Shown here in pieces: positions 45,092 to 63,632 of a stretch of DNA of 64,000 bases (positions are counted from its first letter, which is position 1; each line of letters begins with the position of its first letter). A program made the translations under genes and the position numbers. This stretch comes from Bombella saccharophila (GTDB lineage Bacteria; Pseudomonadota; Alphaproteobacteria; Acetobacterales; Acetobacteraceae): contig NZ_JANIDW010000002.1 in assembly GCF_026385475.1 (NCBI RefSeq), forward strand, positions 1 through 64,000, in the 5' to 3' direction. The notes below the pieces were generated by a model. That model made no database searches. It was not told the DNA's origin and saw only the letters and a list, made by a program, of their open reading frames with translations.

Positions 45092-45107
45092 TGTTTCACA
45101 TGAAACA
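45092..45107. promoter_or_regulatory. parS-like ParB-binding site
   Basis: TGTTTCACATGAAACA matches the bacterial chromosomal parS consensus TGTTTCACGTGAAACA at 15 of 16 positions; the one change is at the centre. It is a palindrome lying just past the mutY stop. parS sites cluster near replication origins, and a candidate origin lies about 10 kb to the right. ParB binding itself is not shown. Confidence 0.65.
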
Positions 45108-47700: not shown

Positions 47701-47716
47701 TGTTTCCCGTGAAACC
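47701..47716. promoter_or_regulatory. Second parS-like site
   Basis: TGTTTCCCGTGAAACC matches the parS consensus at 14 of 16 positions, including the central CG pair. It lies in the short gap after the pirin gene, 2.6 kb from the first parS-like site. It is weaker than the first, but two in one region is the usual parS pattern. Confidence 0.5.
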
Positions 47717-54711: not shown

Positions 54712-55344
54712 ATGCCACGCACACCCCCTGATTTCCTTCAATCAGACCATATATCAGCCCGCACGCGCTCTGCGCTGTTACAACGTATGGAGGATGAACA
54801 AGGCAAGAGAGAGCATCTCTCTGCATCGTCTTTTCATTGTTTAGAGCAAGTTTGCGATGATATTTTGCCACAAAGCTCTCTGCTTGGTGATGTTCACCTT
54901 AACCTTGCTGTTATGATTGATAAAACCCTCGCCGGGCCGGGTGATGGATGGCGTTTTGCCGACCTCCCAACTGACTTAAAAGCTTGGGAGATGGGCCTAG
55001 CTTCTCTTAATGATTACGCTCAGCATCTTTTTGGCTCCTCTTATACAGCCTTAAAGGCTGAAGATCGTGGCTCTCTGCTTGATGATGCTTTTGCAGGCAC
55101 ATTACCAGCTTGCTCTTCCGCTGCTTTTTCCCCTGCCCAGATGGCTTTGTGGAGTGGGGATATGCGCACGGCGATTGTATCGTCTTTTCTGGCGCATCCT
55201 ATAGCGCAAGATAAGCTTGGTATTTCTGCCAATATGACCGGTGGAGATAAGGAAATACAAGGATTTTCGGCTCATAGCTTAGAGCAAAAAGAAGCGTTTG
55301 AGCCTGAAAATGAACGCCGTTTTTTGAATCGGAATCATCCATAA
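54712..55344 (+). CDS. Gluconate 2-dehydrogenase subunit 3-family protein
   Basis: A 210-residue helical protein matching the small (gamma-type) subunit of FAD-dependent gluconate/sugar dehydrogenases: SSFHCLEQVCDDILP, FADLPTDLKAWEMGLASL and MALWSGDMRTAIVSSF. In the membrane enzymes this subunit usually carries the Tat signal that exports the large subunit. Here the N-terminus (MPRTPPDFLQ) has no twin arginine or hydrophobic core, so the complex may stay in the cytosol. The large GMC-type subunit is encoded downstream after a 419-bp gap that contains the origin candidate. Confidence 0.75.
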   Translation: MPRTPPDFLQSDHISARTRSALLQRMEDEQGKREHLSASSFHCLEQVCDDILPQSSLLGDVHLNLAVMIDKTLAGPGDGWRFADLPTDLKAWEMGLASLNDYAQHLFGSSYTALKAEDRGSLLDDAFAGTLPACSSAAFSPAQMALWSGDMRTAIVSSFLAHPIAQDKLGISANMTGGDKEIQGFSAHSLEQKEAFEPENERRFLNRNHP

Positions 55345-55763
55345 AACATGGTGGGATAAAGGGCTATATGTGAGAGAAAAGTTCCATCCGTAGAGGGTTC
55401 AGCTTTAAAGCGAAAATGACGTGAAATCATAGCGTGCGTGAGAAGAAAGACCGACAACACAACATTTTAATTTATAAAATTATAAATTGATGATGTGGTT
55501 AAACCCTGTGAAAACTGGGGTACCCGGCTTTCTAAAAATGTACCCCAGCTTACTCACACTGTGTACAACTTCACTAAGCAAGAAGACTCAAGGCCTCTAG
55601 GATGTTATCCTTCTTTTTCCACAATGGGCCTGTGTACAATCCCCTTTTTATAAGGGGGTACAGTACCGTCCCCAGTACTCGGTACCGCTCTCATAAAAGC
55701 CCGTACAATCCCCATGTACCCCAACCTAAACCACTTTATCCATAAGGTGATGGACATAGTTTG
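55345..55763. other. Candidate chromosomal replication origin (oriC)
   Basis: This gene-free region has the features expected of an origin. An AT-rich run of about 40 bases (55461-55495) could unwind. DnaA-box-like 9-mers are TTTTCCACA (55615-55623, fits TTWTNCACA), TGTGGTTAA (55494-55502, one mismatch), TTATCCATA (55736-55744, one mismatch) and two TGTGTACAA (55560, 55631). Top-strand base skew switches from C-rich to G-rich around here, and rho, mnmE and mnmG follow. No dnaA gene is seen. The evidence is compositional; initiation is not shown. Confidence 0.45.
55515..55720. repeat. GTAC-rich hairpin array
   Basis: Ten GTAC tetramers occur between 55520 and 55719, where fewer than one is expected. 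They are arranged as: CTGGGGTAC/GTACCCCAG (9-bp perfect arms, 55515-55523 and 55540-55548), GTACCG/CGGTAC (55663-55668 and 55680-55685), and TGTAC...GTACA enclosing CCCCTT/AAGGGG (55633-55662). GTACAATCCCC occurs twice (55634 and 55703). It may be binding sites at the origin or operators for the following gene. Confidence 0.7.
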
Positions 55764-57308
55764 ATGACGCAGAACATGATGAATGATGTTTCACAACAAA
55801 TTGCTGATGTTGTTGTTATCGGTACAGGGGCCGGTGGTGCCCCTCTTATAGCGCGGCTGGCCCAAGCAGGGCGAAAGGTCGTAGCGTTGGAAGCAGGACC
55901 GGCTTTTCAAGCGCGGTCCCATACGCCTGATGAGCCAACCGCGCAGGAGCTTTATTGGCTGCATGAGCGGCTCTCCGGTGGGAAGACCCCACAAGCCTTT
56001 GGTGGCAATAATAGCGGGACGGGCCTTGGGGGCTCTTTGCTTCATTACGGGGCATTTTTACCACGAATGGATAAGCGGGAGTTTCATCTCCATAGTGAGA
56101 CCGGCCAAGGGGTTGATTGGCCCTTCGGTGCTGAGGAGATTCAACCTTATATAGAGGAGGTTGAACGCTTTATCGGGGTTAGCGGCCCAGCGCATTATCC
56201 GTGGGATGAAAGCCGCCATTATGCCTATCCTCCTTTGGCCCCTAATGCAGCAGCCCTTAAAATGCGGAAAGCGTGCGATAATGTAGGGTTACGCCATGCG
56301 GATGGGCCTGTAGCTGTGATTTCGCAAGGGCGTGAGCAGCCTCATTTTGGTCATCGTGAAGGGTGTGTTAATTGCGGGGCCTGCCATCAAGGTTGCCGCA
56401 ATGGGGCGAAATCAGGTGTTGATAATACCTATTTACCGTTAGCTTGCGCTCATGGGGCGGAGTTGCGTCCCGGTTGTATGGCAACAGCTTTTGAGCGTGA
56501 TAGTCAGGGGCGGATTACAGCTGTCATTTATGTAAAAGATGGGCGAGAAGAACGGCAAAAATGTAAGGCTGTTGTTCTTGCCGCTGGGGCGGTGGAGACG
56601 GCTCGCTTATTACTGCATAATGGTCTGGCCAATAGCTCCGGCCAAGTGGGGCGGAATTACATGACACATGTCTCCACCCAAGTGTGGGGCGTGTTTGATG
56701 AGGAAATCCGGCCGAATAAAGGATACCCATCTCTTACGATTACTGAGGATATGCTCCGGCCTAAGGATGCGGATTTTGCGGGGGGTTATTTGCTACAATC
56801 CCTTGGTATGATGCCTCTGACATGGGCGGCAAATCTTGTGCGTGCTGATGGGCGGCGTGGTGAAGCTTTAAGCCAAACTTTGGCCGCCTATAATTATAGT
56901 GCCGGTATTGGGATGCATGGGGAGAGCCTCCCACGGGAGGAAAACCGCGTAACCCTCTCGGAGGAGAAAGACGCTTTTGGTCTGCCAAAACCGCGCATTG
57001 ATTACAGTTATGGCCCTAATGAGGAGGCCATGCACCGCCATGCTACCCGTCTGATGGTGAAGATGTGGGAGTCGATCGGGGCGAAGGATATACGGGTCAT
57101 AAGCCGTGCTGCCCATATGATTGGCACATGCCGTATGGGTAAAGATGCAGGCTCTGCGGTGGTTAATCCCTATGGCCGTAGTTTTGATATTGAGAATCTA
57201 TGGATAAGCGATCACTCTACCTTCCCTAGCTCTGGGGCGGCTAATCCTGCTTTGACCATTATGGCACTTTCCTTACGAACAGCGGATGCGCTGCTAAAGG
57301 TTGTGTAA
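55764..57308 (+). CDS. GMC-family FAD-dependent dehydrogenase
   Basis: A 514-residue flavoprotein of the GMC oxidoreductase group that oxidises sugars, sugar acids or alcohols. The FAD motif GTGAGG is at residues 20-25, and the C-terminal His-containing segments AHMIGTCRMG and DHSTFPSSGAANPALT are present. A cysteine cluster C201-x2-C204-x2-C207-x3-C211 (CVNCGACHQGC) recalls the iron-sulfur site of bacterial FAD-glucose dehydrogenase. There is no signal peptide, and no cytochrome c subunit gene follows. The small-subunit gene lies upstream. Electron acceptor and substrate are unknown. Confidence 0.8.
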   Translation: MTQNMMNDVSQQIADVVVIGTGAGGAPLIARLAQAGRKVVALEAGPAFQARSHTPDEPTAQELYWLHERLSGGKTPQAFGGNNSGTGLGGSLLHYGAFLPRMDKREFHLHSETGQGVDWPFGAEEIQPYIEEVERFIGVSGPAHYPWDESRHYAYPPLAPNAAALKMRKACDNVGLRHADGPVAVISQGREQPHFGHREGCVNCGACHQGCRNGAKSGVDNTYLPLACAHGAELRPGCMATAFERDSQGRITAVIYVKDGREERQKCKAVVLAAGAVETARLLLHNGLANSSGQVGRNYMTHVSTQVWGVFDEEIRPNKGYPSLTITEDMLRPKDADFAGGYLLQSLGMMPLTWAANLVRADGRRGEALSQTLAAYNYSAGIGMHGESLPREENRVTLSEEKDAFGLPKPRIDYSYGPNEEAMHRHATRLMVKMWESIGAKDIRVISRAAHMIGTCRMGKDAGSAVVNPYGRSFDIENLWISDHSTFPSSGAANPALTIMALSLRTADALLKVV

Positions 57309-57587: not shown

Positions 57588-58898
57588 ATGCATCTCGCCG
57601 AATTGAAGAAGAAATCTCCCGCTGATCTATTGGCTTTTGCTGAAGAATTGGAGGTTGAGAATGCCTCATCCCTGCGGAAGCAGGATATGATGTTCGCTAT
57701 TCTCAAAACTCTTGCCGAGCGTGAACAGGCTATTTACGGCGAGGGCACTCTTGAGATTTTGCCGGATGGTTTTGGCTTCCTTCGTAGCCCAGAGGCAAAC
57801 TACCTTCCCGGCCCTGATGATATTTACGTCTCCCCTGCGCAAGTGCGGCGTTTTGCCTTGCGGCCGGGTGATACGGTGGAAGGGGAAATCCGCGCCCCAC
57901 GGGATGGCGAGCGTTATTTTGCCCTGCAAAATGTCAATACGATCAATTTTGAAGCCCCAGAGCAAGTCCGCACGCGGATTAATTTTGATAACCTAACACC
58001 GCTCTTTCCTGAGCGTCCTTTGCGGATGGAGACAGAGCAGCAAGATGCTGTTAATGCCGCCCCTGCCCCAGCAAAAAGCAAGGGACGGGACCGTAAAGAC
58101 CAAAAAGATTATACCTCCCGCGTGATTGACCTTGTCGCTCCTATTGGGATGGGCCAGCGTGCGTTGATTGTCGCCCCCCCGCGGACGGGTAAGACGGTCA
58201 TGCTGCAAAGCATTGCGGCCTCTATCTCGGCAAATCATCCTGATGTGTTCCTCATTGTTCTGCTTATTGATGAGCGACCTGAGGAAGTGACAGACATGGC
58301 CCGCTCTGTGCGCGGTGAGGTTGTGTCCTCCACCTTTGATGAACCCGCTCATCGCCATGTGCAGGTGACGGAAATGGTGTTGGAGAAAGCCAAACGTCTT
58401 GTTGAGCATAAGCGCGATGTGGTCATCTTGTTAGATTCCATCACACGTCTTGCGCGTGCCTATAACACGGTTGTGCCGTCATCTGGTAAGGTGTTGACCG
58501 GTGGTGTGGATGCTAATGCCCTCCAACGGCCTAAACGCTTCTTCGGTGCGGCGCGTAATATTGAGGAAGGCGGCTCCCTTACCATTATCGCTACAGCCTT
58601 GATTGATACAGGCTCCCGTATGGATGAGGTCATCTTCGAAGAGTTTAAGGGTACAGGTAACTCCGAGCTGATGTTGGATCGTAAATTGGCTGATAAGCGG
58701 ACCTTCCCCGCTATCGACATCACCAAGTCCGGCACGCGTAAGGAGGAGCTATTGGTGGATCGTGCCTCCCTCTCCAAAATGTGGGTCCTTCGCCGTATCT
58801 TGGCTCCCATGGGCACGATGGATGCTATGGACTTCCTGCTTGATAAGCTGCGCTATAGCAAGACAAATCAGGATTTCTTCGATGCGATGAATAACTAG
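57588..58898 (+). CDS. rho: Transcription termination factor Rho
   Basis: A 436-residue hexameric RNA helicase that ends transcription at Rho-dependent sites. The N-terminal RNA-binding domain has [16 protein letters not shown] and the cold-shock-like GFGFLRSP; the ATPase core has Walker [11 protein letters not shown], Walker [17 protein letters not shown] and the Q-loop/R-loop [15 protein letters not shown]. The protein is full length without inserts. It is followed by a bidirectional terminator, so it stands alone. Confidence 0.97.
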
Positions 58899-62251: not shown

Positions 62252-62327
62252 AAGCTCTAAGCTGCCTGTTTTAGTGATGAGCGTCAATTCTTTCTACAAA
62301 ACGCTGCTTTTCTGGCAGGAGTGCTGT

Positions 62328-63632
62328 ATGAAAGGCGGCATGAACATATCTGGCGCATCCACTCACACAATTTTTGCTATAGCGACAGGCTCCGTGCAGG
62401 GGGCGATTGCGGTTATGCGGGTAAGCGGGCCGGAGAGTGGTAAGATTTTAAAGGCATTATGCGGGGTTTTACCGCCGCCGCGTCATGCTAGCGTGCGGGC
62501 CTTAACATATGAGGGGGATGTGTTAGACCATGCCCTTATCTTATGGTTGCCGGGGCCGCGCTCTTATACAGGGGAAGATAGTTTTGAGCTGCACCTCCAT
62601 GCTGGCCCGGCGATTATAGAGGCCGTAGCGCAGGCTCTTGTGCATCTTGGTGGCCGCCCTGCTGAGCCGGGGGAGTTTACCCGCAGGGCTGTCCAAGCGG
62701 GGCGGATGGATATTCTCCAAGCGGAAGCGATTGCGGATTTAATTGAGGCGGAAACACAAGCGCAGCGTCATCAAGCCTTGCGGCAAGCTGATGGGGCATT
62801 AAGCCAGCTTTATACAGGATGGGCAGCGCGATTGCGGCAGATTTTAGCCCAACAGGAAGCGTTGATTGACTTCCCCGATGAGGAGCTTCCCCCAGAGGTG
62901 GAGGGTGCCCTTATAGAAGATTGTCGGGTTTTAGCGCAGGAGATGCAGGCTCATCTTGCTGATGAGCGGGGCGAGATTGTGCGGGACGGGTTGAAGATTG
63001 TGCTCGCTGGGGCCCCAAATGTCGGGAAGTCGAGTTTGCTTAATGCTCTTAGTGGGCAGGATGCAGCCATCGTGACGCAAAAAGCTGGCACAACGAGGGA
63101 TGCGATAAGTGTTGAGTGGATGATTGAGGGGATTCGGGTTCGCTTGATTGATACAGCAGGGTTACGCGAGACAGAGGATGAGATTGAGGCTGAAGGCATC
63201 CGCCGGACCATGCAGCATGTGGAGAAGGCGGATGTATTGTTTCATCTCGTCGGGCCGGGGGATGAGACGCCTTTGCTCGCCCCCCATGCTGTAAAATTAC
63301 GCACTAAAACAGACCTGACTCCGGCTCAAGGAGGTGAACTTGGGGTGCATACGCAGGATGAGGCCGGTTTAACCCCCTTGCGTGAATGGCTAAAAGCACA
63401 TCTTGCCACGCTTATGGCACAACGTGGCACACCGCCTTTAACGCGGGCGCGCCATCGTGCAGGGTTGCAGGAGGCGCAGCAGCATCTTACCCATGCGTTG
63501 GAGGCCTCATGGCCGGAGGTACGCGGGGAGGAGTTGCGCTTAGCAATGCAGGCTATAGGGCGGCTGACAGGCCATGTGGATGTAGAGGCCCTGCTCGATA
63601 CAATTTTCGGCCAGTTTTGTATAGGAAAGTAA
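62328..63632 (+). CDS. mnmE: tRNA uridine-5-carboxymethylaminomethyl modification GTPase MnmE
   Basis: A 434-residue GTPase that, with MnmG, modifies the wobble uridine of several tRNAs. An N-terminal folate-binding domain ([20 protein letters not shown]) is followed by a helical domain and the G domain with P-loop GAPNVGKSS. The C-terminal CIGK motif is intact. An AGGAG lies 6 bases before the ATG at 62328, so I prefer it to a farther-upstream start (62274) or to the ATG at 62340. mnmG follows 9 bases later, as is usual. Confidence 0.95.

Follow-up and report, generated by a model that had tools for sequence, protein, structure and literature searches.

The usual description of bacterial replication origins has them staying put next to long-standing neighbour genes, and in the alphaproteobacteria the origins of the Caulobacter crescentus type were reportedly described by Brassinga in 2001 as linked to hemE. 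In the excerpts available of the sources concerned, the origins of Caulobacter and Rickettsia lie between hemE and COG1806 (PMC1914354), that of Sphingopyxis is hemE-linked (PMC4741004), and hemE linkage is the described state of alphaproteobacterial origins (PMC1914354; PMC4741004); for Neorickettsia, a second origin candidate away from hemE is also listed (PMC1914354). For acetic acid bacteria, two genome papers, in the passages available, assign oriC to the vicinity of dnaA, in Acetobacter pasteurianus 386B (PMC3751514) and in A. cerevisiae KSO5, where the site lies at the GC skew maximum (PMC13209655). In the parts of the open-licence literature consulted, no hemE-linked or relocated origin was found for acetic acid bacteria, and the combination of Bombella and oriC gave matches only through the genus name Oricola.

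The DNA analysed here, referred to as the window, is a stretch of 64,000 nucleotides from Bombella saccharophila. According to the list of its open reading frames, 419 bp at 55345–55763 are without genes, since the dehydrogenase small-subunit frame ends at 55344 and the GMC oxidoreductase frame starts at 55761 or later (TTG at 55761, or ATG at 55764, 55776 or 55779). An earlier note had put this gap forward as a candidate origin, and on the evidence of sequence it is very probably the chromosomal oriC of this Bombella-type bacterium. The genes and sites around it are as follows:

45092–45107, plus strand: parS-like site with one mismatch (motif scan)
47701–47716, plus strand: parS-like site with two mismatches (motif scan)
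54712–55344, plus strand: dehydrogenase small-subunit gene, left half of a split operon (Pfam Gluconate_2-dh3, E = 1.1e-13)
55764–57308, plus strand: GMC oxidoreductase gene, right half of the split operon (Pfam GMC_oxred_N and GMC_oxred_C)
57588–58898, plus strand: rho (NCBIfam TIGR00767, above cut-off)
62274–63632, plus strand: mnmE (NCBIfam NF003661, above cut-off)

The skew switch at the gap, the parS-like sites to its left and the rho–mnmE–mnmG order to its right, all of which the earlier note had described, are borne out. GC skew is minus across the left 56 kb of the window and plus to the right, with the change of sign between 54–56 and 56–58 kb and the cumulative minimum at 55138, approximately 370 bp left of the conserved core (55505–55723). 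The two parS-like sites compare with 0.2 expected in the window. On the right flank, rsmG and parB also score above their NCBIfam cut-offs, the matches of the ParA-like ATPase fall below the family cut-offs, and the gene called mnmG is a probable one by its sequence. A third parS-like site, with two mismatches, lies at contig position 65521 (L273:1521–1536), beside parAB-like genes. A scan for promoters and terminators gave matches at chance level only.

Within the gap, the following features can be distinguished, from left to right:

55461–55495, no strand: AT-rich stretch, 89% AT, candidate DNA-unwinding element
55494–55502, minus strand: DnaA-like box TTAACCACA, one mismatch, not conserved in the genus alignment
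55505–55723 (219 bp), plus strand: conserved putative origin core (model R1, E = 3.6e-45; 30-genome alignment A2)
55507–55515, minus strand: DnaA-like box GTTTTCACA, one mismatch, at the conserved CTGTGGAT word by the left end of the core
55517–55546, no strand: inverted pair GGGGTAC ... GTACCCC (GGTAC/GTACC, five pairs invariant in 30 of 30)
55550–55558, plus strand: DnaA-like box TTACTCACA, one mismatch, conserved in part in the 30-genome alignment
55560–55568, minus strand: DnaA-like box TTGTACACA, one mismatch, its GTGTACA part invariant in 30 of 30
55615–55623, plus strand: DnaA box TTTTCCACA, exact TTWTNCACA, without change in all 10 genomes aligned for the genus
55631–55639, minus strand: DnaA-like box TTGTACACA, one mismatch, TGTGTACAA invariant in 30 of 30
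55655–55723, no strand: GTAC-rich right half, with GTAC at 55658, 55663, 55675, 55682, 55703 and 55716
55669–55674 and 55709–55714, no strand: TCCCCA, the Caulobacter W-box word, within 55655–55723
55736–55744, plus strand: DnaA-like box TTATCCATA, one mismatch, outside the core

The one exact TTWTNCACA and the several one-mismatch boxes first reported for the gap are confirmed, six 9-mers of the latter kind being counted, and so is the AT-rich run. These seven boxes (at most one mismatch) stand against a mean of 1.18 in 2000 dinucleotide shuffles (P = 0.001), and no second 419-bp stretch of the window holds seven; the exact box alone is not significant (seven in the window vs 4.6 expected; P = 0.06 within the gap). 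The stretch 55461–55495, with 89% AT vs 49% for the window, has an AT count that is reached by 14 of the 63,966 35-mers of the window, at three places. In all 30 aligned genomes, an AT-rich 35-mer (69–91% AT) is present within 70 bp to the left of the core, each time ranking in the top 2% of its own locus of approximately 3 kb, and the letters of this block differ in the window's genus from those of the other aligned genomes.

The four-letter word GTAC, which the earlier note had not listed, occurs ten times in the gap (window 55520–55719) vs a shuffle mean of 1.87, a count that none of 2000 shuffles reached, and the same is true of the four copies of GTACCCC/GGGGTAC (0 of 2000). Every one of the 30 cores carries between 6 and 11 GTAC words, and over the whole window GTAC keeps to its expected frequency (104 vs 106). 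The word TCCCCA, a weak DnaA word (W-box) of Caulobacter according to the available part of the source (PMC4285127), is in weak excess in the gap (2 vs 0.39 expected, P = 0.05) and is found in the last 30 letters of 27 of the 30 cores, being absent from three. The G-box TGATCCACA was found neither in the 30 cores nor among the boxes of the gap, and the gap has no CtrA site of the form TTAA-N7-TTAA.

The earlier note had tied its reading to conservation of the gap in related genomes, and the gap is indeed conserved in the window and nine genus mates. The gene order ahcY, sucB, small subunit, gap, GMC, rho is the same in all nine mates (DUF3597, between ahcY and sucB, being matched in eight of them). 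The left part of the gap aligns poorly, and the right part, from about 55455, is strongly conserved, with blocks that are identical across all ten genomes; the adjoining small-subunit protein is 63–73% identical in eight of the nine mates and 98.6% in the nearest relative (G009); the Rho proteins of G009 and the window are 100% identical.

Beyond the genus, when 55455–55740 was used as a DNA query, 62 of 200 family genomes gave a match at E <= 1, the weakest of these matches including chance ones. Thirty elements, with loci from this search, make up the alignment A2, from which the sequence-only model R1 was built; matches of R1 to these 30 elements exist by construction. With R1, matches at E <= 0.01 were obtained in 53 of the 200 family genomes and in none of the other 147; 51 of the 53 have a single match, which is weak or partial in some, and two have an additional weak one. 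In the window's own genome, the core is the sole match at E <= 10. A pattern derived from A2 and applied to genomes of 84,980 species gave 101 matching stretches with one match each, all of them titled Acetobacteraceae or its genera (two genera were checked for membership and the rest compared with the family list). The titles comprise Acetobacter, Gluconobacter, Gluconacetobacter, Komagataeibacter, Novacetimonas (which we take to be a genus of this family), Asaia, Swaminathania, Commensalibacter, Neokomagataea, Acidomonas, Brytella, Tanticharoenia, Lichenicoccus, Saccharibacter, Bombella and Parasaccharibacter, plus Acetobacteraceae bacteria.

The place of the element in these genomes is informative. 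In 87 of the 101 loci, hemE lies 76–212 bp left of the pattern and is always divergent, with maf on the right in 79 of the 87; the L223 locus has its left end cut and maf on the right. The remaining 13 loci, from Bombella species, three Saccharibacter, Parasaccharibacter apium, a MAG and an Acetobacteraceae bacterium, have the small-subunit gene on the left instead of hemE, and GMC on the right in 11 of them (the other two end before the GMC position). Positions agree with this: hemE adjoins the core in 33 of 37 genomes compared and is 19–24 kb away in four (the window genome G000, G009, and Saccharibacter G133 and G189), a distance that is 21–32 kb in eight further genus mates, P. apium and S. 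floricola. In all seven diverged members with a match (G010, G088, G103, G118, G132, G188 and G195), the match is beside hemE; the look-up covered the R1-matching genomes with the exception of seven of the 53 (G084, G143, G163, G178, G194, G211 and G219). The order hemE, core, maf was read directly in G102 and G167, and in G210 the core adjoins hemE, the stretch read there giving no match to maf. The origin reading of the earlier note is supported, but it had missed that the site is not the ancestral one and that the origin apparently stood beside hemE before.

In the window's genus, the conserved element is located directly upstream of the GMC gene, and it might be proposed that it is a regulatory region or a structured leader of the GMC dehydrogenase operon. 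That the same element adjoins hemE in 87 of 101 species loci, that the spacer of the operon is only 20–68 bp in relatives, and that the covariation term of the alignment is −0.04 kcal/mol make this proposal extremely improbable. A regulatory RNA is not supported either, and an RNA element was rejected: besides this lack of covariation, the one Rfam match up to E 1 is to a eukaryotic lncRNA family (19.8 bits vs a cut-off of 48) and lies outside the gap.

How the element came to be where it is can be approached from both the old and the new site. In the window species, hemE is 21 kb from the core, to the right and in inverted relation, which is what a breakpoint at oriC would give if the origin had stayed in place and hemE and maf had been carried away by inversion or deletion. 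However, hemE and maf, which occupy opposite flanks of the origin in relatives, have kept their facing arrangement both in the window species and in Saccharibacter (in the former, the Maf-like gene, just below the family cut-off, is at 76061–76651 on the minus strand and hemE begins at 76805 on the plus strand, 153 bp apart), and for this reason the inversion model for hemE is rejected. The remnant between hemE and maf in Saccharibacter, and the interruption, at the new site, of an operon whose genes lie close together in other genomes, also speak against a stationary origin, which is therefore judged very unlikely.

The remnant was detected in Saccharibacter, which we assume to be a close relative of Bombella. 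G189 and G133 have the full core between the small-subunit and GMC genes and, in addition, a partial core match in the hemE–maf gap of approximately 350 bp (E = 4.1e-6 in G133 and 4.6e-4 in G189; R1, 188 kb), with scores that none of 200 shuffles reached in either case. A third partial match, approximately 120 bp from hemE in S. floricola (G234), has an E of 0.096, which is chance level by itself and worse than two non-remnant matches in Bombella (E = 0.025 for one in G007, antisense over the core of that genome, and E = 0.028 for one in G008:C7), so that its assignment depends on its place and on its covering the same part of the model. The three remnants (L275:10204–10302, L277:13055–13156 and G234:C3:182868–182966) are among the additional weak matches carried by five of the 15 relocated-clade handles (14 distinct genomes), all 15 of which have one full R1 match. 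The DnaA-like words TTACCCACAG and TTTTTCCACA are retained in the Saccharibacter remnant. The remnants of G189 and G133 share 58 of 94 positions (62% identity) and their full cores 186 of 222 (84%), as would be expected if the remnant is less constrained. In the three genus genomes read (window species, G007 and G006), the hemE–maf gap shows no trace of the core. This gap is 910 bp long in the MAG G006 (L279:10512–11422), far longer than that of the window species, and has no core match.

At the landing site, the spacer between the small-subunit and GMC genes, measured between aligned ends, is 366, 369, 385 and 440 bp in the four relocated genomes tested, vs 20–68 bp in all 11 relatives that have the closest homologue pair and the core beside hemE; the origin thus lies between two genes that are normally close. 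The search covered 24 genomes, nine of which have no GMC match at E <= 1e-60, and the count omits a second, more distant pair in G034, G078, G117 and G180 (GMC 41–43% identical), whose aligned ends are 211–220 bp apart, partly since the small-subunit alignment stops approximately 37 residues early. Left of the relocated origin in G133, a small-subunit match with an in-frame TGA (G133:C12:41499–42089) is perhaps a frameshift or a pseudogene. The remnant beside hemE and the split host operon together indicate that the origin was apparently copied, over approximately 21 kb, into the operon of the GMC dehydrogenase, and that the old copy decayed. Conservation, position, remnant, split operon and skew are direct observations; the order of copying and decay we infer from them.

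Skew in relatives was read from 20-kb samples. Of five relatives, two show a tight agreement with the core (G009 and Acetobacter G200) and two a loose one (G157 and G034), while Gluconacetobacter diazotrophicus PA1 5 (G230) is uninformative, with several sign changes that do not single out the core. In G009, the skew is minus to 48.0 kb and plus from 60.5 kb, and the cumulative minimum of this 12.5-kb stretch is at 55.55 kb, 367 bp left of the core (55.92 kb); the skew minimum, to which the earlier note had also tied its reading, accordingly lies next to the gap in the window and next to its counterpart in this relative. In G200, read in steps of 2 kb, the sign switches between 2486 and 2488 kb, and the core is at 2488.5 kb. 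G157 has minus skew at 1.60–1.62 Mb and weakly plus skew at 1.64–1.66 Mb, which puts the switch approximately 10–50 kb left of the core (1.65 Mb), and in G034 it falls between 1.72 and 1.865 Mb, approximately 10–150 kb left of the core (1.874 Mb).

An origin is usually linked to dnaA, which in the window's own genome is on contig C1, at approximately 609 kb, and whose product retains DHTTV, presumably the motif of the DNA-binding domain. If the origin were there, the gap would be something else. However, in 15 of 17 near-closed chromosomes the distance from the core to dnaA is 0.66–1.00 of the half-circle (median 0.92), where for several the main contig of a multi-contig genome was treated as a circle; the genomes are related and not independent, and those with core and dnaA on different contigs (such as G103 and G118) are omitted from the count. 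In G132 and G188, from another genus, dnaA is approximately 185 kb from a weak core match, which would suit an origin near dnaA. The same may be said of a second, seven-box cluster of G009 at approximately 1.074 Mb (L285:13778–14197), some 25 kb from dnaA, although it lies almost wholly inside two adjacent ORFs and was therefore treated as chance; of 27 stretches totalling 503 kb, from the own genome and G009, the gap of G009 ranks first with eight boxes, followed by seven in the next best. Around dnaA itself, at most two boxes cluster in the own 3.5 kb and three in the 20 kb of G009, and the skew of G009 turns from plus to minus there (G009:C1:1048112), which is a terminus pattern. G166, G230 and G031 have six to nine extra weak DnaA-domain matches each, mostly frames of approximately 300 residues, which we take to be IstB-like transposase helpers.

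By the usual convention, the GC-skew maximum marks the terminus. The two Acetobacter genome papers favour an origin at dnaA in the excerpts available (PMC3751514; PMC13209655), but the second itself sets its site at the skew maximum, and the core and skew of G200 put the origin at hemE. The core is present in other strains of both species (A. pasteurianus LMG 1262, L185; A. cerevisiae LMG 1625, L223). Since dnaA is far from the core, towards the terminus, and the skew maximum corresponds to the terminus, the dnaA-based calls for 386B and KSO5 are probably misplaced, as judged from other genomes, and we regard an origin beside dnaA in the window's genome as having next to no likelihood. These results suggest that Acetobacter origins annotated by proximity to dnaA lie nearer the terminus; in most acetic acid bacteria examined, dnaA is located towards the terminus, unlike the usual dnaA–oriC linkage.

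Taken together, there is high confidence that the right 265 bp or so of the gap are oriC, copied from the hemE site into the operon, with subsequent decay of the old copy. By analogy with oriC elsewhere, from which we infer DnaA binding, unwinding and the course that follows, DnaA would bind TTTTCCACA and the two TTGTACACA boxes, and probably also the weaker GTACCCC and TCCCCA words, filled cooperatively. The filament would then grow leftward and melt the AT-rich 55461–55495, and helicase loading would give rise to two forks, with bidirectional replication. As for its history, the ancestor would have had the same element beside hemE; its copying into the GMC dehydrogenase operon, approximately 21 kb away, would have taken place in the lineage of Bombella and Saccharibacter, and the old copy would have decayed beside hemE, leaving the partial remnant still seen in Saccharibacter. 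A more speculative proposal, to which we assign a rather low probability, is that there was a stage with two origins approximately 20 kb apart, of which the copy in the transcribed operon won, that the remnant still binds DnaA and titrates it or acts as a back-up, and that GTAC constitutes a family-specific origin code comparable to GATC in E. coli; its words may be recognised by some other factor, or may serve DnaA itself as weak boxes.

The donor site, the landing site, the unsplit operon in relatives and the decaying remnant are all visible, which makes the relocation of an origin directly testable, and the core provides a sequence signature for locating oriC across the acetic acid bacteria. 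With regard to known origins, that of Escherichia coli has DnaA boxes beside an AT-rich unwinding region and a strongly over-represented GATC palindrome. The present element resembles it in having boxes beside an AT-rich region and an over-represented four-letter palindrome, GTAC here vs GATC there, and differs from it in location and sequence. The likeness to Cori and the other hemE-linked origins of alphaproteobacteria, as given in the excerpts available, includes DnaA boxes, an AT-rich run and a length of approximately 400 bp (PMC1914354; PMC4741004), to which may be added that the relatives of the window element adjoin hemE and that TCCCCA, in weak excess in the gap, is known as a W-box. 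Unlike that type, the copy in the window lies within an operon, 21 kb away from hemE, and in contrast with Caulobacter Cori, the G-box and TTAA-N7-TTAA are lacking from the sequences searched for them, and ten GTAC words are present in 200 bp. Rearrangements near alphaproteobacterial origins are also described for Wolbachia and Neorickettsia in the available part of the source, where the proposed origins stayed at hemE and synteny was lost (PMC1914354); here it is the origin that left hemE. The relocation in the Acetobacteraceae, unlike those cases, is accompanied by a remnant and by an identifiable landing site.
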